Shown here one piece after another: positions 32,816 to 47,411 of a DNA stretch of 64,000 nt. The stretch lies in contig CALIUY010000002.1 in assembly GCA_938048455.1 (NCBI GenBank), forward strand, positions 62,001-126,000. The letters run 5' to 3'. The notes under the pieces were generated by a model. It was given only the letters and a program-made list of their open reading frames with translations, was not told where the DNA came from and ran no database searches. Both the position numbers and the translations under genes were made by a program. The DNA comes from an uncultured Desulfobacterales bacterium. Lineage in GTDB: Bacteria; Desulfobacterota; Desulfobacteria; Desulfobacterales; SpSt-501. The number at the start of each line of letters is the position of its first letter. Position 1 is the first letter of the stretch.

Positions 32816-33015
32816 CCGTCCTTCGAACTCGGCACGGTTAAAGATCCAAGGCGGACTCCCTGCCGCTCTTCTTTTTAGTGTCTCGCAGAACTTGGATCGC
32901 CCTTATTGTCAGAAGCCCTTGGCTGCCGAAGCTCCCCTCCATTCGTTGGCAACGTCTTGATCTTCAACCAGAACGCAGAAAAGCATCATGCCATACGGAT
33001 GCGGAGGAGGAGAAG

Positions 33016-33470
33016 ATAAAAAAGTACGCGGCAGAGTTTGTGGGTACGTTTTCTCTCGTTTTATGCGGTTGCGGCAGTGCGGTGTCGGCCGCGGCATTCC
33101 CGAGCATCGGCATCGGCCTGCGGGGTGTGTCTCTCGCCTTCGGCTTGACCGTACCGACGATGGCTTTTGCTATCGGCCACATCTCCGGCTGCCATCTCAA
33201 TCCGGCCGTATCGTTCGGTTTCTGGGCCGACGGCCGCTTTCCGGCAAAGCAAGTGGCTCCCGCAATCATTTCGCTGATTTTGGATGCGGTTGCTGCGGCG
33301 GGCGTTTTTATCGGATTGCCAGCGGCAAGACGGGCTGCGAGCTTGCCGCAGGGTTCGCCTCGAACGGCTTTGGGGCGCATTCCCCGGGCGGATACAGTTG
33401 GTCTGCGGCGTTGGTCATCGAAATCGTCATGACCCTGATCTTCCTCTCCGGGCACCACGACCCGGAGCGA
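33016..33470 (+). pseudogene. aqpZ: Aquaporin Z-like channel, decayed
   Basis: Residues follow Aqp[21 protein letters not shown], then [20 protein letters not shown] with the first NPA motif. A frameshift at a T-run near 33305 moves the frame, and the other frame continues as [39 protein letters not shown]. Homology stops before the second NPA motif, so half the channel is gone. The expected start codon reads ATA (33016-33018) behind a perfect GGAGGAGGAGAAG site. It cannot make a working channel. Confidence 0.82.
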
Positions 33471-33479
33471 GGAAATTTC

Positions 33480-34013
33480 CCTGCCCGAAGATTCCCTCTT
33501 GGAAGCCGAACTTCAGGAGATCTCGAGAGCGGAGCCGCTCTCGAGATCGCTTACGAGGATCTGGCCTTGCAGGTTGGCCGCCGCTCCATCCTCCGCCGAT
33601 GGCGACGGCAGCGCGTGGCGAATGAGGGCGACGCTTTGTAGGCCAACGCCCCACCGGGGCAGCCTTTGGGGCGTATTCCGCAGGCTTGACCTTTTGCTTT
33701 TGCCGGGGGCGGCCGATGGAATCCATCGCCGCCGGCCGTTCCCGTTTCTGCCCCCGCCGCAGTTCAACACCCCCCACGGCTTGGGGAAGCCTCTCGTTCT
33801 CGTCCGTACACCGGGGCTGCGTTTCGGCAGGAGCCGTGGCTTGTCATCGCGCGCCGCGGTTTGCGGAACGATCTCGGGGCTTGAGCCTCCTTTGTTTGAA
33901 AAAGGTTCCGCGGTCTGGGAATAGCGAAGAATAACCGGATTGTTCAGGTTCCCGCTCCCGAGACCGGTTCGTCTGGCTAACCCAATTCTAGCGGAAATCA
34001 CACCGAAGTTACC
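33480..34013. other. Region without a recognisable gene
   Basis: No frame shows a family I know. At 33519-33548 there is a near-perfect palindrome, GATCTCGAGAGCGG followed by AG and CCGCTCTCGAGATC (14-bp arms), the strongest hairpin in the region. The DNA looks like decayed sequence between the aquaporin fragment and the arsenic-phosphate locus. Confidence 0.5.
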
Positions 34014-34041
34014 TTGACTTAGACATTTCGCCAAATATAAT
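34014..34041 (+). promoter_or_regulatory. Strong sigma-70-type promoter of the ArsR-ArsC/pst operon
   Basis: TTGACT (34014-34019), a 16-bp spacer and TATAAT (34036-34041) lie 30 bp before the ATG at 34072. It is close to consensus, which suggests strong expression unless repressed; the winged helix of the first gene is a candidate repressor. Confidence 0.8.
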
Positions 34042-34071
34042 AGCGTCAACTTTCGAAGCGGGGTTTTCGGA

Positions 34072-35058
34072 ATGGACGTCGACAAACCGCAGGTCGTCCC
34101 AACGCCCAACCTGCCCGGGGCCGTTCAGCGGGTCGAAGAGGTGGCCAAAGCGCTGTCCGACCAGATCCGCATCCGCATCTTGGCGAGCGTCGCCGAGGAT
34201 CCCCTCAATTTGCAGCAGCTGACCCAGATGTTCGGCTTGGCCCCTTCCACGATGTCAAAGCATCTCCGTCTGCTCGAGGAGGCGAACCTGATTTCGGTCC
34301 AGCGAGTCGGCAAATGGCGTTACTTTCATGCCGCGAACCACACCAAGGATCCGATCGCCGGCGGCGCGCTCCGTTGGATGGCCTCTGTCGCCGCCGAAGA
34401 TCCGCTGTTGGAATCCGATGCGGCTCGGCGGGCGGTGGCGTTGACCCTCAAGCCGGCGCCGCCTCCCAAAGGCGAGCGCCAAAACGTCCTGTTTCTTTGT
34501 ACCGCCAACGCTTGCCGCAGCCAGATGGCGGAAGGGATATTGCGTCACTACGCCGGACATCGCTTTGAGGTCTACAGCGCCGGCGTCTTTCCCCGCCCCA
34601 TCCCGCCCCTGACCGCGGAGGTGATGCGGGAAATCGGTATCGACATCGGCGATCAAAAACCGAAAAGCGTTATGACCCTGATCGGGCGCAAACACTTCGA
34701 CTATCTCATCACCGTATGCCCCCTCGCTGAAAGCCAGGTGCCCGTGTTTCCAGGCGTTACCCGAAGATTGCACTGGCCGATGGAGGATCCGCTCCAGGCG
34801 ACCGGCACCAAGCGGGCTCGGCGGGCGCTGTTTCGACGGGTCCGGGACGAGTTGGTGGAAAAAATCCGCGACTGGATCGAAGGGTCTCCGGACCGAGACG
34901 CTGCGGAGAGAAACACGTTCAGCCGTGGCTCGAAAAAAGCTTCCTCCGCGCCTGCTCGGGCAATAAACGCACGAACGCGTTCGACTTCCTCCCGCAAGCC
35001 GGCGAGACGAACCTCAAACCGCAAAAAGGAGAAGAACCATGAAGCACAAGCTGTGTAA
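34072..35058 (+). CDS. ArsR-type regulator fused to arsenate reductase (LMW phosphatase fold)
   Basis: A 328-residue fusion. Residues 18-105 form an ArsR winged helix (LSDQIRIRILASVAEDPLNL, GLAPSTMSKHLRLLEE). It has no cysteine in the recognition helix where As(III)-sensing ArsR proteins have CVC. Residues 137-275 are an ArsC/low-molecular-weight phosphatase domain with the CX5R loop C143-TANAC-R149 and the late acid site. The tail after about residue 275 is serine and arginine rich, overlaps pstS by 20 bases and may be read-through. It opens the pst operon, so it may report on arsenate or phosphate. Confidence 0.85.
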   Translation: MDVDKPQVVPTPNLPGAVQRVEEVAKALSDQIRIRILASVAEDPLNLQQLTQMFGLAPSTMSKHLRLLEEANLISVQRVGKWRYFHAANHTKDPIAGGALRWMASVAAEDPLLESDAARRAVALTLKPAPPPKGERQNVLFLCTANACRSQMAEGILRHYAGHRFEVYSAGVFPRPIPPLTAEVMREIGIDIGDQKPKSVMTLIGRKHFDYLITVCPLAESQVPVFPGVTRRLHWPMEDPLQATGTKRARRALFRRVRDELVEKIRDWIEGSPDRDAAERNTFSRGSKKASSAPARAINARTRSTSSRKPARRTSNRKKEKNHEAQAV

Positions 35059-36034
35059 GGCAATGGCCGTCCTCATCCCCCTCCTGGCCCTCTGGGTGAC
35101 CGGGACCGTTTCCGCCCAGGTGGCCATCGACCCGGCGCTTCCCGATTACAAGCCGGTCGGGGGGGTATCCGGAAACCTCAAGAGCATCGGCTCCGACACC
35201 ATGAACAACCTCATGACCTTGTGGGCCGAGGGCTTCCTGAAAATGTACCCGAACGTGCAGATCGAGATCGAAGGCAAGGGTTCCTCCACCGCGCCGCCGG
35301 CGTTGGTCAGCGGCACCTCTCATTTCGGCCCGATGAGCCGTGAGATGAAGAGCGCCGAGATCGATGCCTTCGAGAAACAATTTGGCTACAAGCCCACGGG
35401 ACTGGCCACCTCGATCGACATGCTTGCGGTCTACGTCCACAAGGACAACCCCATCAAGGGGATGTCGCTGCCGCAGGTGGATGCGGTTTTCTCCAAAAAC
35501 CGCAAAGGCGGGCATCCCGAAAACATCACCCGTTGGGGCCAGCTCGGCTTGAGCGGCGATTGGGCCAACCGTGCGATCAGCCTCTACGGACGCAACTCGG
35601 CATCCGGCACCTATGGCTACTTCAAGGAGCATGCGCTGTTTAAAGGCGACTACAAGGACGAGGTCAAAGAACAGCCCGGCTCTTCCTCCGTCGTTCAAGG
35701 GGTGGCGAGCGACAAGTACGCTATCGGCTACAGCGGGATCGGCTACAAAACCGCAGATGTGAGGGCGGTGCCGCTTTCCGAAAAAACCGGTCAGAAATTT
35801 GTCGAGGCCGTTCCGGAAAACGCCTACACCGGCGAGTATCCGCTGGCGCGGATGCTCTACGTTTACGTGAATCACAAACCCGGCACCCAGCTCGACCCGC
35901 TGCGCCGGGAGTTCATCCGGTACATTTTCAGCAAACAGGGCCAGGCGGACGTGGTCAAAGACGGCTACTATCCTTTGCCGGCTGCGATCTGCCGCGAGGC
36001 GTTGAAATCGGTCGGAATCCAGCCGAATTTCTAA
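35039..36034 (+). CDS. pstS: Phosphate-binding protein PstS
   Basis: A 331-residue periplasmic binding protein with a signal peptide (cut near AQVAID, residue 26). SIGSDTMNNLMTLWAEGFLKMYP, GKGSSTAPPALVSGTSHFGPM and YGRNSASGTYGYF are the phosphate ligand loops of the PstS family. An AAAAGGAGAAG site precedes the ATG. It feeds PstCAB; in an arsenic locus it may have to discriminate phosphate from arsenate. Confidence 0.92.
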   Translation: MKHKLCKAMAVLIPLLALWVTGTVSAQVAIDPALPDYKPVGGVSGNLKSIGSDTMNNLMTLWAEGFLKMYPNVQIEIEGKGSSTAPPALVSGTSHFGPMSREMKSAEIDAFEKQFGYKPTGLATSIDMLAVYVHKDNPIKGMSLPQVDAVFSKNRKGGHPENITRWGQLGLSGDWANRAISLYGRNSASGTYGYFKEHALFKGDYKDEVKEQPGSSSVVQGVASDKYAIGYSGIGYKTADVRAVPLSEKTGQKFVEAVPENAYTGEYPLARMLYVYVNHKPGTQLDPLRREFIRYIFSKQGQADVVKDGYYPLPAAICREALKSVGIQPNF

Positions 36035-36122
36035 TTCGACCCGGCCGTTGCCCCAAACCTCCGGGCACCGCCTTCCACCGACCTTTGCCGTGAAGGCGGT
36101 GCCCCAAGCCACGGATACGCTT

Positions 36123-38756
36123 ATGCCGCTCTCTGCCGATCAGCGCCCGAAAGCGATCTCCGGAAGGACGCGTCAACGGAAGACCCTTCCCTCGGTAAAA
36201 TTGTGGAACCGTGTCGCCGGAACCCTGATCACCTTGGGCGGTTTGGGAACCATTGCGGCCGTCATTCTGGTTTGCATCTTTTTGGTTTCCGTCGTCATTC
36301 CCCTTTTTCAGCCGCCGGACATCGAGGCCCTTCGCAAAGTGACCTTGGCGGAGAGATCCACGGTAACGCAACACTTGGGGCTGAACGAGTACACCACGAT
36401 GGGGTGGATCGTCGATCCCGAAGGAACGATCCGCTTGTTTCGACTGGATAACGGCGAAGAGCTTCACCGGCTGCGCCCGCTCGGCGATCGTCGGCCCTCC
36501 GCCGCCGCTTTTTCCATTCGGGACGGGGTCGTGGCCTTCGGGTTCGACGATGGAAGCGTTCAGTACGGGACGGTGGACTTCGCCACCCGGTTTTTGGAAG
36601 CCGACAAGGTCCCCGAGGCCATACGCGGCATCGGTGTCGGAAAAGCCGTTCCGTTCGAAAACGGAATGCTCGAGCGTACCCCCGAGAATCAATACCGACT
36701 CCAGACCCTCTCCATCGACTTGAAGGATCCGGTGCGCTTGGAGGATGGAGTTGCGGTCCGCTTGATCGACGTCTCGATGAAATCCTCCGGGCCGGTCATT
36801 GCGGCCCTGACCGACAGCCGCACCTTTCATATCGACGAGGTCTCCACGCGGAAAAACATCCTGACCGGCAAGGTCACCGTCGAGCTGTCCGGCGGGAAGA
36901 TGAAATTGGATGTGCCGCAAGACGATCCGGAGCCCTCCCACTTGATTCTGACCGGCCTCGGCGACAACGCCTTCATCGCCTGGGCGAGCGGACGGCTGGT
37001 CCGTCTGGATACCCGCAATCCGGCCGAACCTTTCGTCATCGAGGAGATCGATCTGGTCGAGGAGCCCGGACACACCCTGACGGCGCTGACGACCCTCATC
37101 GGCAAGACCTCACTGGTATCCGGCGACAGCGCCGGACGGGTGCGCATCTGGTTCCGCATCAAACCCGAAGGCGGCACGGACACCGCCGACGGCGCCAAAA
37201 CGGTCTTGGCCCACGAACTGCCGGGAGGAACCGGAAAAGTCACCGCGTTGAAAGCTTCCGCGCGGACGCGGATTCTTGCCGCCGGCTTCGACGACGGAAA
37301 TGCCCGCTTGTTCCATGCGACGAGCAATCGGCGGCTGGGCGAGGTCGTCTTCCCGGAATCATCGAAAAGCGAGCCCATCCGGCAAGTGGCCCTCTCGCCG
37401 AAGGATGACGTGCTGGCCGCCATCGCCGGCAGCGACATCGCGCTCTGGACCTTGCGGATCCCGCACCCGGAGTCCTCTCCGGCGGCGATTTTCCTGCCGG
37501 TTTGGTACGAGGGCTACGATCAGCCTCAGCATGTCTGGCAATCCTCGAGCGGGACGGACGACTTCGAACCCAAGTACGGCCTGCTGCCGCTGATCTTCGG
37601 CACGATCAAGGCGACGTTTTACTCGATGCTTTTTGGCGTTCCTCTGGCGCTGCTGGCGGCGATCTACGCGAGCGAATTGATGAACGTCAACCTGAAAGGA
37701 CGGGTCAAAACCACGATCGAGATGATGGCCAGCCTCCCCAGCGTGGTGCTCGGTTTTTTGGCGGCCATCATCGTCGCCCCCTTCGTCGAAACCATCGTCC
37801 CCGAGGTGCTCTGCGTTTTCGCCACGGTGCCGTTTTCCGTGCTGCTCGGAGGATACCTTTGGCAACTGCTGCCGGCGCAGTCGCTTCCGCGCTGGGATCG
37901 GCTGCGTGCCTTGGGCATCACCGCCGCCGTCGCTTTCGGGGTGGCGCTGGCCTTCGCGATCGGCCCGGTCGTCGAAAAGCATCTCTTCGCGGGCGACATC
38001 AAAGCCTGGCTTTCCGCCCATGCCGGAAGCGGCGCCGGCGGGTGGATGTTTCTGCTTTTGCCCTCGATGAGCCTTCTGGCGGCCGTTCTGCTGACCCGCC
38101 GCATCAATCCGGCGCTGGCGCGACGTTATACCGGCTGGTCCTCCACGCAAGTGGCGGCGGCGGAGTTGGTGAAATACTTGGCGTCCGTCGCGGCGGTGCT
38201 GGCGGTCGCCCTCGGCATCGCCCACCTTCTCGCCGAAGGTCCCTTCGACCTGTGGCGGCTGGATCCCCGCGGCAGCTTCGTCGACACCTACGTCCAGCGC
38301 AACTCCCTGATCGTCGGTTTCATCATGGGGTTTGCCATCATTCCCATCATCTTCACCATCTCCGAGGATGCGCTGTCCGCGGTTCCGGAACATTTGCGCA
38401 GCGCTTCGCTCGCCGCCGGGGCGACACCCTGGCAGACTGCTTTGCGGATCGTCATTCCCACGGCCGCCAGCGGTCTTTTTTCCGCCGTCATGATCGGCTT
38501 CGGCCGGGCGGTGGGGGAAACCATGATCGTCCTTATGGCCGCGGGCAACACCCCTTTGATGGACTGGAACATCTTTAACGGGTTTCGCACCCTTTCCGCG
38601 AATATCGCCGTGGAGCTGCCCGAGGCCGTCAAGGATTCGACCCACTTCCGCATGTTGTTTTTGGCGGCGCTGGCCTTGTTCGTGATGACCTTCGTGTTGA
38701 ACACCGCCGCGGAAACCGTACGGCAACGTTTCCGTAAGAGGGCCTTCGAGCTATGA
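36123..38756 (+). CDS. pstC: Phosphate permease PstC with large periplasmic insertion
   Basis: An 877-residue protein, much longer than the usual 300-320 residue PstC. Helix 1 (residues 40-65) is followed by about 400 residues with repeated beta-strand patterns (RLFRLDNGEELHRLRPLGDR, GDSAGRVRIWFRIKPEGG, DDGNARLFHATSNRRLG) that look like a beta-propeller. The permease domain follows from about residue 485 with the EAA loop (IPEHLRSASLAAGATPWQTA type). Long PstC forms occur in proteobacteria such as Pseudomonas. I choose the ATG at 36123; the TTG at 36048 is less likely. The stop overlaps pstA (ATGA). Confidence 0.87.
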   Translation: MPLSADQRPKAISGRTRQRKTLPSVKLWNRVAGTLITLGGLGTIAAVILVCIFLVSVVIPLFQPPDIEALRKVTLAERSTVTQHLGLNEYTTMGWIVDPEGTIRLFRLDNGEELHRLRPLGDRRPSAAAFSIRDGVVAFGFDDGSVQYGTVDFATRFLEADKVPEAIRGIGVGKAVPFENGMLERTPENQYRLQTLSIDLKDPVRLEDGVAVRLIDVSMKSSGPVIAALTDSRTFHIDEVSTRKNILTGKVTVELSGGKMKLDVPQDDPEPSHLILTGLGDNAFIAWASGRLVRLDTRNPAEPFVIEEIDLVEEPGHTLTALTTLIGKTSLVSGDSAGRVRIWFRIKPEGGTDTADGAKTVLAHELPGGTGKVTALKASARTRILAAGFDDGNARLFHATSNRRLGEVVFPESSKSEPIRQVALSPKDDVLAAIAGSDIALWTLRIPHPESSPAAIFLPVWYEGYDQPQHVWQSSSGTDDFEPKYGLLPLIFGTIKATFYSMLFGVPLALLAAIYASELMNVNLKGRVKTTIEMMASLPSVVLGFLAAIIVAPFVETIVPEVLCVFATVPFSVLLGGYLWQLLPAQSLPRWDRLRALGITAAVAFGVALAFAIGPVVEKHLFAGDIKAWLSAHAGSGAGGWMFLLLPSMSLLAAVLLTRRINPALARRYTGWSSTQVAAAELVKYLASVAAVLAVALGIAHLLAEGPFDLWRLDPRGSFVDTYVQRNSLIVGFIMGFAIIPIIFTISEDALSAVPEHLRSASLAAGATPWQTALRIVIPTAASGLFSAVMIGFGRAVGETMIVLMAAGNTPLMDWNIFNGFRTLSANIAVELPEAVKDSTHFRMLFLAALALFVMTFVLNTAAETVRQRFRKRAFEL

Positions 38757-40558
38757 ACCGGAAACTGACCTCAAGCCCTTCCCAAGGGTCGCTCGGAGCC
38801 GGCGCCGCGGCCACCGCCGAGCCCTCGATTCAACCCTCCACGCCTGCGGTTCGGCGTCGACCGAAAGGCATCAGTCTGCTCGCGCGCGGAACCGCCCCGG
38901 TCTGGCTGACGGGCGGAGCGATGAGCGTCTGCCTCATGATGATCGGCGGCCTTCTGGCGTTCATCTTTTTCCAAGGAGTCCTGACCTTCTGGCCGGTGCC
39001 GATTGTCAAGATCACTACCGTCGGCGGCGCGACCTTCTTGGGTGAAGTCACCCGGGACGATACCTATCGGCCGGAGCCGACCGTTTTGGAGAAGCTTCCG
39101 GAGGCGGTTCAGGCAGAGGTCCGTCGAATGCTCGCCGAATCGGAAGGGGTGTCCCACCGGCGTCTGCTCCGAACCGGAAACTACGAGCTGACCAACGAGC
39201 ATTTTACTTGGGTCAGCGATTTCGAAATCGCCTCCGGCGGGGAGACCCTGCCGCCCTGGGCGCTCGTTTTCGAGCGCCAGGCCTGGGGGCGTTTCTATGG
39301 AGAGCCCAAGGCCTTCTGGATCGACTCCGTTCCTGTGGCGACCGCGCCGGAGGAAATCTGGAGCTACTTTGAGCGCTACCATCCGGAATCCCGGCACCGT
39401 TGGTCCCAGGCGAAAAATTTGGAAAAACATGCGATCGGGGAAATCAACTACCGCCTCGAGCAATCGCGTCTGAAGCTGCGCGAGGTTGAACTGCGGTTTG
39501 GCAAAGACTCGGACCGGTGGCGCGAACAACAGCGGATCCATGCCGCCGCGGAGACCGAGCTGCAGAAAGAATTCGAAAGCATCCAGCAGACCATCCAGAA
39601 GCTTCGCCAGGAAAATTCCCGCTTCAAGATCCAAGTGGTGACGGCCGACGGCCGGGAAAAGAGCCTGGCGATCGACGAGATCGTACGCGGCTATCCGGCC
39701 AACCGGATCGGCACGCTGGAAAAATGGCGGATTTATCTGTCACGCTGGTGGGAATTTCTTTATGACGATCCCCGCGAGGCGAACAGCGAAGGAGGGGTCT
39801 TCCCGGCCATTTTCGGAACCGTGGTCATGACGCTCCTGATGTCCCTCGCCGTGGTCCCCTTCGGGGTCTTGGCGGCGCTTTATCTTCGGGAATACGCCAA
39901 ATCCGGCCCGCTGGTCAGCTCCGTGCGCATCGCCATCAACAATCTCGCCGGCGTGCCGAGCATTGTTTTCGGCGTTTTCGGTCTGGGTTTCTTTTCCTAC
40001 ATCATCGGCGCGCGCATCGATGACCTCTTTTTCCCGGCCAAACTGCCGAGCCCGACTTTCGGTACCGGCGGCATTCTCTGGGCCTCACTCACCCTGGCAC
40101 TGCTGACGCTGCCGGTCGTCATCGTGGCGACCGAAGAAGCCCTGGCGGCGGTGCCGAGCTCCATGCGGGAAGGATCCTACGCCTGTGGAGCCAGCAAATG
40201 GCAGACGATTCGGCGGATCGTGCTGCCCCGGGCGATGCCGGGGGTGATGACGGGGATGATCCTGGCCATGGCCCGCGGGGCCGGCGAGGTGGCTCCGCTC
40301 ATGCTGGTCGGGGCGGTCAAGCTGGCCCCCGAGCTTCCGATCGACTCTATCTTTCCCTATGTCCATTTGGAGAGAAGCTTCATGCACCTGGGTTTTCATA
40401 TCTATGATCTGGGCTTTCAGAGTCAGAACAGCGAGGCGGCCAAGCCCATGGTGCTGACGACCACGCTGTTGCTGATCGTGATCATTTTCTTTCTGAATGC
40501 CCTCGGCGTTTATTTGCGGTCCCGATTGCGCCGGAAATTCGCATCGTCGGTTTTTTGA
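38753..40558 (+). CDS. pstA: Phosphate permease PstA with periplasmic coiled-coil insertion
   Basis: A 601-residue permease, about twice the usual length. Helix 1 lies at about residues 50-80 ([20 protein letters not shown]). A 270-residue insertion follows, with a coiled coil ([40 protein letters not shown]). The permease core begins near residue 340, and the EAA loop reads [20 protein letters not shown]. The length pairs with the long PstC, so the two insertions may meet outside the membrane. Confidence 0.9.
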
Positions 40559-40572
40559 GGAGGTTCCCTTCC

Positions 40573-41460
40573 ATGAAGATCGGGCTGAATGGGCTGATCG
40601 GTGAATCCCCGGCGAAGGTGGATCGTTCCGTGGGCTCAAGCCGCCTGGCGGCGATCGCCGCCGGCGAGCGATTTCCCACGGAGACCCACCCCCAGCTCCA
40701 AGAAGAGCCGGCCGTGCTGGAGATGCGAAATTTTTCCTTCTTCTACGGCGAGGCCCAGGCGTTGTTCGACATCTCGATGAAGATCCCCAAGGGAAAGATC
40801 ACCGCGCTGATCGGCCCTTCCGGGTGCGGCAAATCCACCTTGTTGCGCTCGGTCAACCGGATCAACGATCTGATCAGCGGAACGCGCATTCAAGGAGACA
40901 TCCTGTTGTCGGGAGATTCGATTTACAGTCCTTCGGTCGATGTGATCGAATTGCGCAAACGCATGGGAATGGTCTTTCAAAAACCCAATCCCTTCCCCCT
41001 GAGCATCTACGAAAATGTAGTCTATCCCCTGCGGATCGACGGGGAACGGGACAAACGAACGCTTGACGCCGTCTGCGAGCGCAGCCTCAAGGCCGCCGCC
41101 TTATGGAACGAGGTCAAAGACCGCCTCCAGGAAAGCGCTTTGGGGCTCTCCGGCGGGCAGCAGCAGCGATTGTGCCTGGCACGGGCGATCGCCGCGGAGC
41201 CGGAGGTTTTGCTGATGGATGAGCCCTGCTCGGCGCTGGATCCGATCGCCACGAACAAAATCGAGGACCTGATTCAATCGCTGAAGGGTGACTATACGAT
41301 TCTGATCGTCACTCACAACATGCAGCAGGCTTCACGCACGAGCGATTATACCGCGTTCATGTATCTGGGGCACCTGGTGGAGTACGGTCCCACAGAAACC
41401 ATTTTTCAAAAACCGCACCTCTCGGAAACCTTGGATTACGTCACCGGCCGATTCGGGTGA
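40573..41460 (+). CDS. pstB: Phosphate ABC transporter ATPase PstB
   Basis: A 295-residue ATPase with [11 protein letters not shown] (about residue 88), [16 protein letters not shown] and [20 protein letters not shown], the last being typical of PstB. The N-terminal 45 residues are an extra extension. A GAGGAGG site 10 bases upstream fixes the ATG at 40573. It completes PstSCAB. Confidence 0.95.
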
Positions 41461-41513
41461 TGAAACCCCGATCGGCGACTCATCCACCGCCACAGCGAAA
41501 GGAGAACGGATCC

Positions 41514-41831
41514 ATGAAGATGCAACACCCCCTGGCCGTCATTCTGGTTGTCGGATTCCTCGCTCTCGCCTTCGGCTGCTCCCACACCGCGGGCTCTTCC
41601 CCTGCCGGCGCGAAAACCGCGGCTGCAACGTCCTATGACAAACCCGGCTTTGTGACCGCGATGCAGGACGGACGGCTGTGGGTCTTCCGGGAAGGCGCGA
41701 AAGAAATCGAGGAGTTCCGAAAGCACGGAGAGCTGGTGAAACAGGTCATCCGACCCGGGGCGGGGCCGAACGGCATCACGCTCAAAGCGCCGGACATCGA
41801 GACGATCAACGATTACCTCAAAGCCAAATGA
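41514..41831 (+). CDS. Small lipoprotein of unknown function in the pst-ars locus
   Basis: A 105-residue protein with a lipoprotein signal peptide (lipobox LAFGC, lipidated cysteine about C22) and a short mature domain (GRLWVFREGAKEIEEFRKHG, then RPGAGPNGITLKAPDIETIN). I recognise no family. It lies between pstB and the PhoU-ArsC fusion, so it may assist PstS or the long permease domains outside the membrane. GAAAGGAG precedes the ATG. Confidence 0.7.
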   Translation: MKMQHPLAVILVVGFLALAFGCSHTAGSSPAGAKTAAATSYDKPGFVTAMQDGRLWVFREGAKEIEEFRKHGELVKQVIRPGAGPNGITLKAPDIETINDYLKAK

Positions 41832-41843
41832 GGAGGGTGGGGC

Positions 41844-41899
41844 GTGCCGGGGCAGGGATGGAAGAAACGAATCGTCATGTGCCTCTCCGGCACCTTTTT
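41844..41899 (+). terminator. Possible attenuator between the lipoprotein and phoU-arsC
   Basis: GTGCCGGGG (41844-41852) can pair with CTCCGGCAC (41885-41893) across a loop of about 32 bases, followed by CTTTTT. It could end part of the pst transcript before the regulatory fusion gene. The long loop makes this uncertain. Confidence 0.4.
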
Positions 41900-41935
41900 C
41901 CACGAAACACCGTGATCATCCATAAGGGATAGAAC

Positions 41936-43048
41936 ATGCTGCCACGGCGATACCGCTCGGAAATCGAAAACGTTCACACCATGCTCCATGAGCTCTCGGA
42001 AATCGTTCAGGAGAATGTTCGACGGGCTCTGCAAGCCGTCGTTCAGGCCGATCACCAGGCCGCCCGGGAAGTCCTTCGGCAGGAAAACGAGATCAACCGT
42101 CTGGAGGTCCGCCTGGAAGAGGCTTGCCTGAAGGTGATGACGCTCCACCAGCCTTTCGCCGATGAAATGCGGTTCCTGGTGGCCTCCACCAAAGTGAACC
42201 GGGATCTGGAACGGGTTGGAGACCTGGCGGCGGCGGTCGCCAAGCGGGTGCATGAACTGGAGCCGATCGCCCTGGCGGCTTTTCTCGCTCCCCTCCGGGC
42301 GCTGACGGACGACATCCAGAAAAACCTCGCCGAGGCTTTGCGAGCGTTCTTTTATCGCGATCATCGTCAGGCCACCCAAATCTGGTTGGCCGACGATCGG
42401 GTGGATGTGCAGGTCGCCGCCATTGCCGCCGGACTGCGCAACGCCATCTTAAAAGAATCGGGACAGGCCCGCTGTTATTTCGCCTTGCTGGCGATCGTTC
42501 AATACCTGGAACGATTGGCCGACCACGCCGCCAACATCGCCAAACACGTCATCTATCTGGTGCTCGGGGAAATCGTGCGGCACCGCATGCGGGAGTACCG
42601 CGAGCCCGCCGAGGGAACCCTCCAGCGGGTTCTGGTCGTATGTGTGCACAACAGCGCGCGCAGTCAAATGGCGGCCGCTTGGATCAACCATCTTTACGGG
42701 AATCGGATCCGGGCCGAGAGCGCCGGCCTGCAGCCGGGGACCCTCCACCCGCTGGCGGTCGAAGTGATGCGGGAGGTGGGGATCGACATCTCGGGCAACG
42801 TTCCGCGGGATGTATTCGATATCTCCCGCTCCGGCCATCCCTTTGCCTACGTCATTCGGATATGCGACGGGGTGAGCGCCGAGAAGTGTCCGCCTTTTCT
42901 CGGCGTGAAGCAGGAGCTGAATTGGGATGTGCCCGATCCGGCAGCGTTCTCCGGAGAGAAGGAAGTCCTTCTCGAGCGATTTCGAGAGATTCGTGACGAC
43001 ATTCGACGGCGGATCGAACGCTGGGTCGCGGATGCATTCCCCCAATGA
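41936..43048 (+). CDS. PhoU domain fused to an arsenate reductase (ArsC) domain
   Basis: A 370-residue fusion. Residues 1-215 are a PhoU protein, with two three-helix halves and metal-site motifs RDLERVGDLAAAVAKRV (about 89-105) and YLERLADHAANIAKHV (about 190-205). Residues 230-368 are an ArsC/LMW phosphatase domain with the CX5R loop C236-VHNSA-R242 and a late acid (WDVPDPAAF). PhoU curbs Pst and the phosphate sensor kinase, so joining it to an arsenate reductase ties arsenate reduction to control of the transporter. The domain edges are intact and I see no frameshift. I do not recall this fusion as a standard type. Confidence 0.9.
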   Translation: MLPRRYRSEIENVHTMLHELSEIVQENVRRALQAVVQADHQAAREVLRQENEINRLEVRLEEACLKVMTLHQPFADEMRFLVASTKVNRDLERVGDLAAAVAKRVHELEPIALAAFLAPLRALTDDIQKNLAEALRAFFYRDHRQATQIWLADDRVDVQVAAIAAGLRNAILKESGQARCYFALLAIVQYLERLADHAANIAKHVIYLVLGEIVRHRMREYREPAEGTLQRVLVVCVHNSARSQMAAAWINHLYGNRIRAESAGLQPGTLHPLAVEVMREVGIDISGNVPRDVFDISRSGHPFAYVIRICDGVSAEKCPPFLGVKQELNWDVPDPAAFSGEKEVLLERFREIRDDIRRRIERWVADAFPQ

Positions 43049-43081
43049 CGTGCAAGCCCGCCGCACGCCGGCGGGGCGAGA

Positions 43082-43564
43082 ATGAAGAGAGTGCCCATGG
43101 CTTCTTGCACCGTTCTTGTCATTTGCCGCCACAACAGCGGCCGTAGCCAGATCGCCGAAGCCTATCTCCGGAAGTTCGGCGGGGATCAAATCCATGTCGA
43201 AAGCGCCGGCTTCGAACCGGCTAAGGAGGTCAATCCGCTGGTCGTCGAGGTCATGAAGGAAGAAGGGATCGATCTGTCCGGCAAAAAACCCCAGAGCGTC
43301 TTTGAGTTGTACAAGCAGGGACGGCTCTTCGACCATGTGATCACCGTCTGCAGCGACAGCGAAAGCGACTGCCCGATCTTTCCCGGGATCACCCGGCGCT
43401 GGCACCTGCCGTTCCCGGATCCTGCGGCCGTCGAAGGCACGCACGCGGAAAAGCTGGCCAAGGTCCGCCAAATCCGCGATGCGATCAAAGCGGCGATCCT
43501 CAATCCGCCGGAAGGGGCGTTCGATTACCGACGATTCCTTGGATCGCCGGAAACCACCCCGTAG
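43082..43564 (+). CDS. arsC: Arsenate reductase, thioredoxin-coupled (LMW phosphatase fold)
   Basis: A 160-residue enzyme with CX5R loop C15-RHNSG-R21 and a late acid site (PFPDPAAVEG). Known members reduce As(V) to As(III) through a cysteine cascade using thioredoxin, or act as phosphatases; a cysteine lies near residue 98 (DSDC). It follows the PhoU-ArsC fusion by 33 bp and precedes arsR-acr3, so the product As(III) has an exporter. It starts at the ATG at 43082, or at 43097. Confidence 0.85.
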   Translation: MKRVPMASCTVLVICRHNSGRSQIAEAYLRKFGGDQIHVESAGFEPAKEVNPLVVEVMKEEGIDLSGKKPQSVFELYKQGRLFDHVITVCSDSESDCPIFPGITRRWHLPFPDPAAVEGTHAEKLAKVRQIRDAIKAAILNPPEGAFDYRRFLGSPETTP

Positions 43565-43857
43565 ACCTTTTTCCCCAAGCGCCCGTGTGCTGCGGCATTC
43601 TTGCCGTATTCTTCAACATCGCCGAGAGAATCGCCGCGCGACCGACGCGCTGTTCCGCAAGCCGGCGGCCTGAAGCCAACGACCCGCGTTCCCGTGAGCC
43701 TTCCCGGCGGCGAATCTTCCCTCCGCTTTCGCGGACGGTCCACCTCCTAAGCCCGCTCGTGGAGCAGCCGTCCTCAGGAAAAGGGCGGAAAGGTTCCGTC
43801 TGACGACTTTTTCCCTCTGCTTCCAGACTCCGAGAATCCACATGATCCTTAATTGGG
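43565..43857. other. Gap without a recognisable gene
   Basis: No frame on either strand shows a family signature between arsC and the arsR promoter. Confidence 0.5.
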
Positions 43858-43915
43858 TTGACAGGGCGGCAAGGCCAAGGTAAATATTCATGTATTAGCG
43901 CAGGTACACATATTT
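43858..43915 (+). promoter_or_regulatory. arsR-acr3 promoter and ArsR operator candidate
   Basis: TTGACA (43858-43863), a 17-bp spacer and TAAATA (43881-43886) form a good promoter. An imperfect dyad, AAATATTCATGTA (43882-43894) with TACACATATTT (43905-43915), covers the -10 and start region, where ArsR repressors usually bind. Confidence 0.75.
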
Positions 43916-43935
43916 ATTTCCTCGAAGATCCCCCT

Positions 43936-44427
43936 ATGCGGAACGAATCCGCGCTATTCAAGATGTTGTCAGACACAACGCGCTTGAGGATTTATACCTA
44001 TCTTCTGGTTCATGGGGAGACCTGCGTGTGTGATCTGGCAGCCTCGCTCAACGAAGCGGCCTTCAAAATTTCTCGACACCTCGGCGTATTGCGGACTTTC
44101 GGAATCGTAGAGGTCAGACGCGAAGGAACGTGGATGTTTTACAAACCCGTAAAGCCCCGCTCCCTTTTTGAACAATTGCTTCAAGAGCTCCTGCGAACGG
44201 CGCTGGCGGGTCAGCCGAGGCCGGCCCGGAGTTCGGCATATCTTCGCGATCATTCTTGTGCCGCGCGGAAAACGAAAAGAAGAAAGGATCCTGTTCATGG
44301 AAAAAACCACAAAGCCCGATCCTCACATGCACCTCCAGAGGGAAATGCCCAAGCGTCTCAATGTGTTCGAACGCTTCCTGTCGTTGTGGGTCCTGATCTG
44401 CATGGTCGTGGGGGTCGCCGTCGGTAA
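43936..44427 (+). CDS. arsR: ArsR-type As(III)-sensing repressor
   Basis: A 163-residue protein; the winged helix occupies residues 1-85 (ALFKMLSDTTRLRIYTYLL, KISRHLGVLRTFGIVEVRRE). The motif ETCVCDL in the recognition-helix region is the classical As(III)/Sb(III) site. The usual size is about 110 residues; the basic tail overlaps acr3 by about 130 bases and may be an artefact of an open frame after mutation of the true stop. It should repress its own promoter and acr3 until As(III) binds. Confidence 0.88.
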   Translation: MRNESALFKMLSDTTRLRIYTYLLVHGETCVCDLAASLNEAAFKISRHLGVLRTFGIVEVRREGTWMFYKPVKPRSLFEQLLQELLRTALAGQPRPARSSAYLRDHSCAARKTKRRKDPVHGKNHKARSSHAPPEGNAQASQCVRTLPVVVGPDLHGRGGRRR

Positions 44428-45409
44428 ATTGATGCCCGACTTGGTGGCCGCCTTGAGTCGAATGGAATTCGGCGAAGGATCGCAGATCCATGTTCCCATC
44501 GCCGTTCTCATCTGGTTGATGATCTTTCCGATGATGTTAAAGATCGATTTCGGGGCGCTGGGAGGAATCGCGCGCAAACCCAAGGGACTTTTGATCACCC
44601 TTTTCGTGAACTGGCTGGTGAAACCCTTCAGTATGGCCTTGCTCGCCTGGATCTTTTTTCACCATCTCTTCTCGACCTGGATCGACCCGGAAACGGCCAA
44701 AAGCTATACCGCAGGCGTCATCATCCTTGCCGCCGCCCCTTGCACCGCCATGGTCTTCGTCTGGTCCTATCTGACGGACGGCGATCCGGCCTATACGCTG
44801 GTTCAGATCGCCGTAAACGATCTGCTCATGCTCTTTCTGTTCGCACCGATCGTCATGCTCCTTCTCGGCGTGGCCGACGTGGTCGTGCCGTCCAAGACGC
44901 TGATCGTTTCCGTTTTGGTGTTCATCGTCATCCCGCTGTCCGCCGGTTACCTGACGCGGAGCGCCTTGCTCAAATCTCGCGGCAAAGAGTGGTTCGAAAA
45001 CCGTTTTCTTCCCCGGTTTCACCCGGTCACGGTGATCGCCCTGCTTTTGACGCTGGTGCTGATTTTCGCCTTCCAGGCGGAAAGCCTGCTGATGAAATGG
45101 TTCGCCGTCATCCTGATCGCCATTCCGATCCTGATCCAGGTCTATTTCAACTCCAGCCTGACTTACACGCTCATGCGGATCTTCAAGGTGCCGCACAACG
45201 TGGCCTCGCCGGGGGCGCTCATCGGTGCGAGCAATTTTTTCGAATTGGCCGTCGCCGTGGCGATCACGCTGTTCGGTCCGAGCTCCGGTGCGGCGCTGGC
45301 TTGTGTCGTAGGGGTTTTGGTGGAAGTTCCGGTGATGTTGTCGGTATGCAATATCTGCAACCGCTCGCGGACGTGGTACAATCGGGCGTTGCCGGCGGCA
45401 TCCGCTTGA
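44297..45409 (+). CDS. acr3: Arsenite efflux permease Acr3
   Basis: A 370-residue ten-helix exporter. The conserved cysteine of the fourth helix is in AAAPCTAMVFVWSYL, and NDLLMLFLFAPI and PGALIGASNFFELAVA are typical ACR3 segments. An AGAAAGGA site precedes the ATG at 44297 inside the arsR frame. It exports As(III) made by the ArsC domains upstream. Confidence 0.93.
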   Translation: MEKTTKPDPHMHLQREMPKRLNVFERFLSLWVLICMVVGVAVGKLMPDLVAALSRMEFGEGSQIHVPIAVLIWLMIFPMMLKIDFGALGGIARKPKGLLITLFVNWLVKPFSMALLAWIFFHHLFSTWIDPETAKSYTAGVIILAAAPCTAMVFVWSYLTDGDPAYTLVQIAVNDLLMLFLFAPIVMLLLGVADVVVPSKTLIVSVLVFIVIPLSAGYLTRSALLKSRGKEWFENRFLPRFHPVTVIALLLTLVLIFAFQAESLLMKWFAVILIAIPILIQVYFNSSLTYTLMRIFKVPHNVASPGALIGASNFFELAVAVAITLFGPSSGAALACVVGVLVEVPVMLSVCNICNRSRTWYNRALPAASA

Positions 45410-45575
45410 AACGTCCTATTGAAACGTCCTACGAAACGCACTTGCAGTTCGGCTGGGAAAATGACCCGGTCGGTTTGGCGCCGCCGCGTAGACCGGAAAT
45501 CACCAAGGAGCGGTCGGGTCTTAGGGCTTCGAACAGGCTTCGACGGAAAGATTTCCTGATTTGAGGAGATTCGCC

Positions 45576-47411
45576 ATGAAAGGATGGATCGGAAAATTGC
45601 TTCGCGTGAACCTGAGCGAGCGCAGCTTCCGAAGCGAACCTTACGATGAGGCTTTTGCTCAAAAATGGATCGGGGGTCGCGGCATGGCCCTGAAAATTCT
45701 CTGGGATGAGCTGAAACCGGGGATCGACCCGCTCGGTCCCGAGAACAAGTTCATCGTGGCGCTGGGCCCCATATCCGGAGTCCCCGCCCCGAACACCGGC
45801 AAGGCGGTCGTCGCCGCCAAGTCGCCCCTCACCGGCGGATACGGCGACGGCAATTTGGGAACCCGGGTGACCGCACAACTGAGAAAAGCGGGCTATGATT
45901 TGCTGGTCGTGGAGGGCCGTGCGGAAGCCCCCACCATCTTGGCGATCGAAGACGACCGGGTGGAATTTCACCCCGCGGATTCCCTCTGGGGCCGAGGAAC
46001 CTACGACGCCGAAGAGGCGCTTCAGCGAGCTTACGGCAAATCCGCCGGAATCCTCCTTATCGGTCAGGCGGGCGAGAATCAGGTGCGCTATGCCGTTGTG
46101 CGAAGCTTGCAGGGCCGTGCCGGCGGCCGCCCCGGAATGGGGGCGGTGATGGGCTCCAAACAGCTGAAGGCCATCGTCGTCAAAGGCAGCAGCGAAATAC
46201 CGCTTTCGTTCCATGAGGACTACCGGGCCACAACCCGTGCGGATCTGAAAAAAGTTCATCAACTGGACCGACAGTCGGGCTGGTCGCGGCAAGGAACGGC
46301 AGGCGTGCTGGCCTGGTGTAACGAGGTGGCCGCCCTTCCGGTGCGGAATTTCCGGAAGACCTCTCACCCCGACGCCTGGCGCATCGACGGGGAGCGCGTG
46401 GATGCCGCACGAGTCGCCACCTACGGCTGTCCCTTTTGCGTCTTTCCGTGCGGCATCGCCGTGCACGACCGCGAGGGCCGCGAGTCCGAGCTGGATTATG
46501 AAAACATCGGCCTGCTCGGCAGCAACCTGGAGATCTTTGAGCTGGACCAGGTCGCCTCCCTCAATTACCTGTGCGACGATTACGGGCTGGACACCATCTC
46601 TGCGGGCAGTGTTCTTGCATTCTATGCCGATGCCATCGAGCATGGAGCCGCCGAGGGGTCCTTTCGTTTCGGCGACGCCGAGGCCGCCAAAGCCCTGCTC
46701 GGACTGATCGCCCGCCGGCAAGGCGTGGGAAATCTTTTGGCCGATGGGGTCATGCGGATGGGGCGGGCGTTCGGCAAGGGATCCGAAGCTTATGCCATGC
46801 ATGTCAAAGGCCTGGAAATATCGGCTTACAATTGCAAATTCATTCCCGGCATGGCCCTGGCATACGGTACGAGTCCGATCGGGGCGCACCACAAGGAGGC
46901 CTGGGTCATCACCTATGAGTTGAAAGAGACCCCTCGAGATTCCTACGGAATCGAAAAGGCACGAAAGGTCATCGAGCTGCAACGTATTCGCGGCGGTCTG
47001 TTCGAATTCATCGTCTCCTGCCGATTCCCTTGGGTTGAACTGGGCTGGGATCTCGATCATTATGCCGGCTATTTCCGCATGGCGACGGGGTTGAACTGGT
47101 CCTTGGATGATCTCTACCGTGTCGGGGATCGGATCTACGCTCTCATGAAAGCGTTCTGGGCGCGAGAGTTTCCGAACTGGAGCCGGAAGATGGACTATCC
47201 GCCGCCCGCCTGGTTCGACCCGACCTATGCCGACCGGGAAGGCATCATCGCCGGGAAGGTTCTGGAGGTCGAACAATACGACCGTCTCCTCAGCCTCTAC
47301 TATCACCTTCGCGGCTGGGACGAGCGCGGCATTCCCACGCGTCGGACATTCAAAGACCTGGAGCTGGGGGAGGAAATGAAAGCTTTGGAACCGTGGGTGC
47401 GGTTGGAATGA
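45576..47411 (+). CDS. aor: Aldehyde ferredoxin oxidoreductase family protein
   Basis: A 611-residue tungsten- or molybdenum-pterin enzyme. The N-terminal domain (KLLRVNLSERSF, FIVALGPISGVPAPNTGK) binds the two pterins. The [4Fe-4S] motif C285-PF-C288-VFP-C292 is followed by LCDDYGLDTISAG. It oxidises an aldehyde to an acid with ferredoxin, or runs in reverse. The GAGGAG site 5 bases upstream fixes the ATG at 45576. It lies 166 bp after acr3 and is followed by a MoaD/ThiS-like protein, a common pairing. Its link to arsenic is by position only. Confidence 0.92.
   Translation: MKGWIGKLLRVNLSERSFRSEPYDEAFAQKWIGGRGMALKILWDELKPGIDPLGPENKFIVALGPISGVPAPNTGKAVVAAKSPLTGGYGDGNLGTRVTAQLRKAGYDLLVVEGRAEAPTILAIEDDRVEFHPADSLWGRGTYDAEEALQRAYGKSAGILLIGQAGENQVRYAVVRSLQGRAGGRPGMGAVMGSKQLKAIVVKGSSEIPLSFHEDYRATTRADLKKVHQLDRQSGWSRQGTAGVLAWCNEVAALPVRNFRKTSHPDAWRIDGERVDAARVATYGCPFCVFPCGIAVHDREGRESELDYENIGLLGSNLEIFELDQVASLNYLCDDYGLDTISAGSVLAFYADAIEHGAAEGSFRFGDAEAAKALLGLIARRQGVGNLLADGVMRMGRAFGKGSEAYAMHVKGLEISAYNCKFIPGMALAYGTSPIGAHHKEAWVITYELKETPRDSYGIEKARKVIELQRIRGGLFEFIVSCRFPWVELGWDLDHYAGYFRMATGLNWSLDDLYRVGDRIYALMKAFWAREFPNWSRKMDYPPPAWFDPTYADREGIIAGKVLEVEQYDRLLSLYYHLRGWDERGIPTRRTFKDLELGEEMKALEPWVRLE

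Follow-up and report, generated by a model that had tools for sequence, protein, structure and literature searches.

Arsenate gains entry to cells as a mimic of phosphate, and it is an open question how cells maintain phosphate uptake in its presence. Known fusions of the arsenate reductase ArsC join it to an exit pump or to a repressor, whereas a gene in the 64,000-nucleotide stretch of DNA analysed here (the window), from an uncultured Desulfobacterales bacterium, joins it to PhoU, the brake of the entry pump. What does an ArsC fold do on a regulator of phosphate import? The fusion could allow arsenate to be disarmed at the point where the phosphate pump leaks it into the cell, and with one protein, detoxification at the entry point or arsenate-gated uptake can be tested directly.

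Integrity and fold of the fusion protein

The phoU-arsC gene (41936..43048, + strand, ATG start) is a single open frame of 370 amino acids, and the ORF check of the window found no internal stop. In the encoded protein, a complete PhoU (residues 5-214) is connected by a short, flexible linker to a complete thioredoxin-type ArsC fold (residues 230-365). The PhoU half matched PF01895 in two stretches (115.5 bits) and exceeded the cut-off of TIGR02135 phoU_full (157 bits, cut-off 130; residues 5-214). Both E(D)xxxD metal-site motifs could be aligned, namely DLERVGD (D90-D96, residues 90-96; 42203..42223, + strand) and ERLADH (E192-H197, residues 192-197; 42509..42526, + strand). The ArsC half matched PF01451 LMWPc (59 bits, residues 232-363). 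The initial annotation, which had described a full PhoU half with both metal-site motifs and a full CX5R ArsC half in the same frame, was therefore right about the composition of the protein. The top NCBIfam model of the ArsC half, arsC_pI258 (TIGR02691), scored 80 bits, below its cut-off of 174, which we count against a reductase function; the stand-alone ArsC beside the fusion likewise stays below it (107 bits vs 174), so that this cut-off is of little use for the ArsC branch of the window.

An AlphaFold2 model of the fusion (mean pLDDT 92.4) contains two confident domains, joined by a weakly predicted stretch at about residues 211-229. With a pTM of 0.68 and no confident interdomain contact, the relative position of the domains is undefined. 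The PhoU half has the six-helix fold and, in Foldseek comparisons, resembles P. aeruginosa PhoU (4q25, TM 0.93), and the ArsC half resembles Deinococcus indicus ArsC2 (8p5n, TM 0.91). Between the window genome and a congener with the same fusion (G002), dN/dS was 0.14 for PhoU and 0.07 for ArsC, which is thus the more constrained half, and highest (0.23) for the linker (residues 215-229; 42578..42622, + strand), where model confidence is low (about 60). A codon-like substitution pattern spans both halves, and purifying selection acts on both.

Catalytic residues of the ArsC half

The oxyanion loop CVHNSAR (C236-R242; 42641..42661), the redox cysteine pair C310 and C318 (CDGVSAEKC; 42863..42889) and D334-P335, which carries the general-acid Asp of the LMWPc/ArsC fold (42935..42940), were located by alignment, all on the + strand. 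C236, R242, C310 and C318 align with Cys15, Arg21, Cys87 and Cys94 of D. indicus ArsC2, whose structures support a three-cysteine relay (PMC10483234). The closest solved protein to the ArsC half is a triple-cysteine arsenate reductase. None of the five residues (C236, R242, C310, C318 and D334) varies among the three fusions of the window's group. The redox cysteines are spaced by seven residues in the fusion vs six in the aligned D. indicus enzyme, which counts against a reductase. Judged by these residues, catalysis in the ArsC half looks intact.

Genomic context of phoU-arsC

The fusion had been placed inside a pst operon, and this setting was found, with pstSCAB upstream; beyond what had been claimed, ars genes, among them an upstream arsR-arsC fusion, flank it on both sides, and a second pst operon is present elsewhere in the genome. 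On the + strand, the order is arsR-arsC, pstS, pstC, pstA, pstB, a small putative lipoprotein gene, phoU-arsC, arsC, arsR and acr3. In the first gene, an arsR-arsC fusion (34072..35058), the ArsC half has its second redox Cys replaced by Val (VCPLAESQV), and the ArsR half is without a CVC motif. This gene is followed by pstS (35039..36034), which is of the P. aeruginosa PstS type (4omb, 413 bits), long forms of pstC (36048..38756, 902 aa) and pstA (38753..40558, 601 aa), and pstB (40555..41460; TIGR00972, 396 bits; likelier start ATG at 40573). The long pstC and pstA (36048-40558) hold large regions without a Pfam match. The closeness of pstS to P. aeruginosa PstS suggests that the pst operon of the window was transferred; no step in G+C was seen at the island. 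The genes overlap or lie almost end to end from arsR-arsC through pstB. The lipoprotein gene (41457..41831) has no family match and is kept in G002 (70%). Thus, phoU-arsC is the second gene after pstB, and phoR is not adjacent. It is separated by gaps of about 105 bases on its 5' side, in which a weak terminator-like hairpin is not above chance, and of 34 bases on its 3' side.

Downstream lie the stand-alone arsC (43082..43564), which belongs to a separate ArsC lineage and is 44% identical to the fused half, arsR with the motif ETCVCDL (43936..44427), and the arsenite exporter gene acr3 (44297..45409; TIGR00832, 376 bits, above cut-off). About 130 bases are shared by the arsR frame and the beginning of acr3, and the end of the ArsR reading resembles out-of-frame acr3 sequence, which may reflect a frameshift or an unusually long tail. 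Directly upstream of arsR-arsC, a sigma-70-like site (TTGACT-16-TATAAT, 34014..34041, 11/12 matches) is the sole + strand match in 33400-46000, with total matches not above chance. No clear operator-like inverted repeat for ArsR was found upstream of arsR-arsC. An aquaporin (MIP) gene directly upstream of the cluster (32878-33641) looks broken: PF00230 fits its first half, and the second half seems to run on in another frame. Aquaporins are present in some ars clusters. A gene of the aldehyde ferredoxin oxidoreductase family adjoins the cluster (45561-47411), and another lies near the fusion of G239, a genome of another family of the order (locus L030, 11247-13127, - strand); the two are just 23% alike.

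The window genome harbors another pst operon, on contig 16, beside a response regulator and a PAS/HAMP histidine kinase (a phoB/phoR-like pair), and its stand-alone phoU lies 37 kb beyond that operon. The locus in the window is thus an arsenic island in the sense that ars and pst genes are clustered while a second pst operon lies elsewhere in the genome.

Distribution and origin of the fusion

The same in-frame fusion was detected in G002 (80% identity, residues 1-369) and in G239 (59% identity, residues 3-365). The union of PhoU and ArsC within a pst operon is thus conserved, and a missed stop between the domains, which the initial annotation had wanted checked, was not found, the frame being the same in three assemblies. 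The gene order of G002 equals that of the window from arsR-arsC to arsC to the extent that its contig covers the cluster, with pstB unresolved in the gene call. In G239, arsC and arsR-arsC are followed by pstSCAB and the fusion. In addition, ArrA/ArrB-like genes (1329 and 333 bits, both below cut-offs) with a TorD-like chaperone gene (locus L094, 4159-9226, - strand) lie about 10 kb from this pst operon. ArrA-like genes also occur in G001, G002 and G006 and were not found in the window genome. The pst types beside the fusion differ between the two lineages, with a P. aeruginosa-type pstS and long pstC and pstA in the window vs shorter, distant genes in G239. Both lineages share an arsenic context (arsR-arsC, arsC, arsR and acr3 in the window; arsR-arsC, arsC and arrAB-like genes in G239). 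Since a further congener, G004, has arsC-arsR-acr3 without pst genes and without the fusion, the part of the cluster made up of pst and the fusion is accessory.

The three fusions are grouped in a single, strongly supported clade by the trees of both halves (PhoU 99/100; ArsC 98/99 and 100/99), and hence a single fusion event was passed on as a unit, by inheritance or transfer. The two genes are not always separate in related genomes: the picture is mixed, with fused genes in some and adjacent separate genes in others. Four other genomes of the order (G081, G089, G158 and G028) carry pstSCAB-phoU-arsC as separate genes, and G024 has the order pstS-arsC-pstC. The four operons indicate that a functional pairing of phoU and arsC exists without fusion. 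Their adjacent arsC genes fall into ArsC branches other than that of the fused half, and therefore these operons are not its direct ancestor. An origin of the fused arsC as a duplicate of its neighbour was considered as well and is not supported, as the two lie in different branches and the 44% identity between them is exceeded by the 51-57% that stand-alone ArsC proteins from further families of the phylum reach.

Searching 389 genomes of the order with the window's fusion returned its type in three, plus two other fusions, and no further case of this type was found in 395 genomes across the phylum. These frequencies, and those given below for the second group, are those of genome samples, and the genome-level search was bounded by the phylum; the class-level sample mostly overlapped that of the order. 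Among plasmids, a match to one of the two halves was obtained in 915 records, none of which covers 80% of the fusion query, and the only fusion returned by a scan of public genome contigs was the G002 record. A different fusion, in G288, follows pstB, has 27% identity to that of the window and possesses the catalytic set; no ars genes lie on its 8.7-kb contig.

Related fusions with a mostly non-catalytic ArsC fold

Starting from G164, we found a second group of eight fusions (group 2; G164, G131, G095, G253, G216, G446, G557 and G406), whose members come from the order and from two further families of the phylum. The group 2 query gave five in 291 genomes of the order and three in 198 genomes across the phylum. 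Seven of the loci are L078 6899-8077, L079 6660-7760, L081 6795-7895, L090 7142-8263 and, on the - strand, L080 5952-7052, L088 7658-8767 and L089 8248-9732. Where the contig shows it, the fusion is the first gene of a fusion-pstS-pstC-pstA-pstB operon, often with a second pstB; in G164, it lies at the contig end, where pst genes are not visible. No ars genes were matched near group 2 fusions. Where the window's protein has its loop cysteine, the eight members carry D, D, C, S, G, D, S and S, and hence the nucleophile is lost in seven of them. The redox pair is lost in all eight, G557 and G406 have also lost the arginine of the loop, and the match to the fold is mostly retained, with G406 below the reach of the LMWPc model. 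With these losses, a standard reductase is excluded for the group 2 domain, which has nonetheless been kept. Group 2 thus shares domain order and pst operon with the window's fusion and differs from it in the mostly lost catalytic residues, the lack of nearby ars genes and the frequent presence of two pstB genes. In the best trees, group 2 stands apart from the window's group, although AU tests do not reject one clade of fusions (p 0.09 for ArsC, 0.16 for PhoU).

Discussion

We propose that the protein of the window works as an arsenate reductase and is anchored at the Pst importer of an arsenic island. From the sequence data, this is the best reading of the locus, and we give it a probability of roughly one half. 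PhoU binds PstB, as known from E. coli and Salmonella, and also PhoR (PMC4423584, PMC9239213), and by analogy the PhoU half would dock on PstB of the dedicated, arsenic-linked importer. The ArsC half, on its flexible tether, could then carry out thioredoxin-coupled reduction of arsenate that enters together with phosphate, at the inner face of the importer, and the resulting arsenite would be exported by ACR3. As the operon starts with arsR-arsC, arsenic probably induces pst, phoU-arsC and arsC together, and the cell may swap in the Pst system of the island when arsenate competes with phosphate. An arsenate reductase is also suggested by the contrast between the groups, in which the catalytic residues are kept amid ars genes and lost without them, although this contrast rests on few lineages and the catalytic fusion of G288, without ars genes on its short contig, is not a neat fit. 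Several observations count against this function. Pst systems are strongly selective for phosphate, and therefore little arsenate may enter through them. In Halomonas GFAJ-1, deletion of either pst operon left arsenic resistance unchanged (PMC5930303). Catalytic cysteines have been lost in related fusions elsewhere, and the fused ArsC copy may be redundant, given stand-alone arsC and arsR-arsC in the same cluster.

An error of assembly or frame that joined two genes can be discarded: the window assembly is fragmented (64 contigs), but independent copies in G002 and G239 have the same frame, one of them on a 1.4 Mb contig, and codon-like substitutions run across both halves. It is also very improbable that the LMWPc half acts as a protein phosphatase on the Pst/Pho machinery instead of on arsenate. 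PF01451 does include LMW phosphatases specific for tyrosine or arginine, which share the CX5R loop. However, the closest solved relatives of the ArsC half are arsenate reductases (E 1e-25 vs 2e-4 for YwlE), the redox cysteine pair is present, and arsenic genes surround the fusion. Moreover, tyrosine phosphatases have an aromatic pair after the DP motif, whereas the fusion has AA (DPAA).

A serious alternative, if on balance a doubtful one, is that the fusion only ensures co-expression, so that an ordinary active ArsC and an ordinary PhoU are made in fixed stoichiometry and nothing is gained, as by channelling, from closeness at the transporter. Since phoU and arsC are already adjacent in the pst operons of four genomes, little was needed to fuse them, and the short, variable linker with its low model confidence would agree with such an origin. 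However, the arsC genes of those operons belong to other branches, and two families retain the fusion at 59% identity, with constraint on both halves. Both points speak against co-expression alone. Alternatively, the ArsC half might be a sensor that binds arsenate or phosphate, or reports thiol redox, and gates PstB through PhoU, closing the importer upon arsenate entry. The retention of the domain at the head of pst operons in group 2, despite the near-complete loss of its catalytic cysteines, speaks for it, but for the protein of the window we regard a sensor as unlikely, because a pure sensor would not need catalytic residues that are all invariant in its group, and because no confident contact was predicted between the domains. 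Of the two proposals in the initial annotation, arsenate reduction at the transporter is thus the better supported by the full catalytic set and the arsenic island, and the oxyanion sensor fits the decayed group 2 better, for which it is a reasonable explanation. Group 2 therefore provides a natural comparison for telling an enzyme from a sensor, and it may help with the unsettled question of what PhoU senses. It is tempting to speculate, if with considerable doubt, that PhoU with an ArsC fold might be a recurring Pst control module in the phylum, an oxyanion reader on the brake that is an active reductase under arsenate threat and decayed elsewhere.

No description of a PhoU-ArsC fusion, or of one of the group 2 type, was found in the literature searched, which covered few subscription papers; a domain database may list the architecture. 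The closest parallels to the locus as a whole are arsenic islands with pst1, in which ars genes and pstSCAB(phoU) are clustered and another pst operon is located outside the cluster, as in the window genome (PMC3834237; GFAJ-1, PMC5930303; A. tumefaciens 5A, PMC7965956). The two pst operons of the window genome match the pst1/pst2 pattern of islands that are themselves defined by the aio genes (aioBA arsenite oxidase) (PMC3834237). In A. tumefaciens 5A, ArsR1 controls pst1 and phoU1 (PMC7965956). For the published islands accessible to us, no fusion of PhoU to ArsC is described, in contrast to the window. With the thioredoxin-coupled ArsC proteins of B. subtilis (1jl3), S. aureus pI258 and D. 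indicus (ArsC2, 8p5n/8p6m), the ArsC half shares the fold and the Cys/Arg/Cys/Cys/Asp set, but these proteins stand alone, whereas the ArsC of the window is the C-terminal half of a larger protein. Fusions of ArsC to a regulator are known as ArsR-ArsC or ArsRC (PMC6514093, PMC6205960; Chen et al., 2022, cited in PMC9479143), and one example heads the cluster of the window. ArsR, however, is a DNA-binding repressor, whereas PhoU acts on PstB and PhoR. An ArsN-ArsC fusion is also known (PMC6514093, PMC6205960). In the ACR3-ArsC fusion of Mycobacterium and the aquaglyceroporin-ArsC fusion of Salinispora (Wu et al., 2010, as cited in PMC6514093, PMC6205960), ArsC is tethered within one chain to an arsenic-handling transport system and reduction is coupled to transport, in which they resemble the proposed role of the window's protein. 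These fusions couple ArsC to the exit of arsenic by arsenite export, whereas its partner in the window, PhoU, is no channel but a regulator of the entry route.
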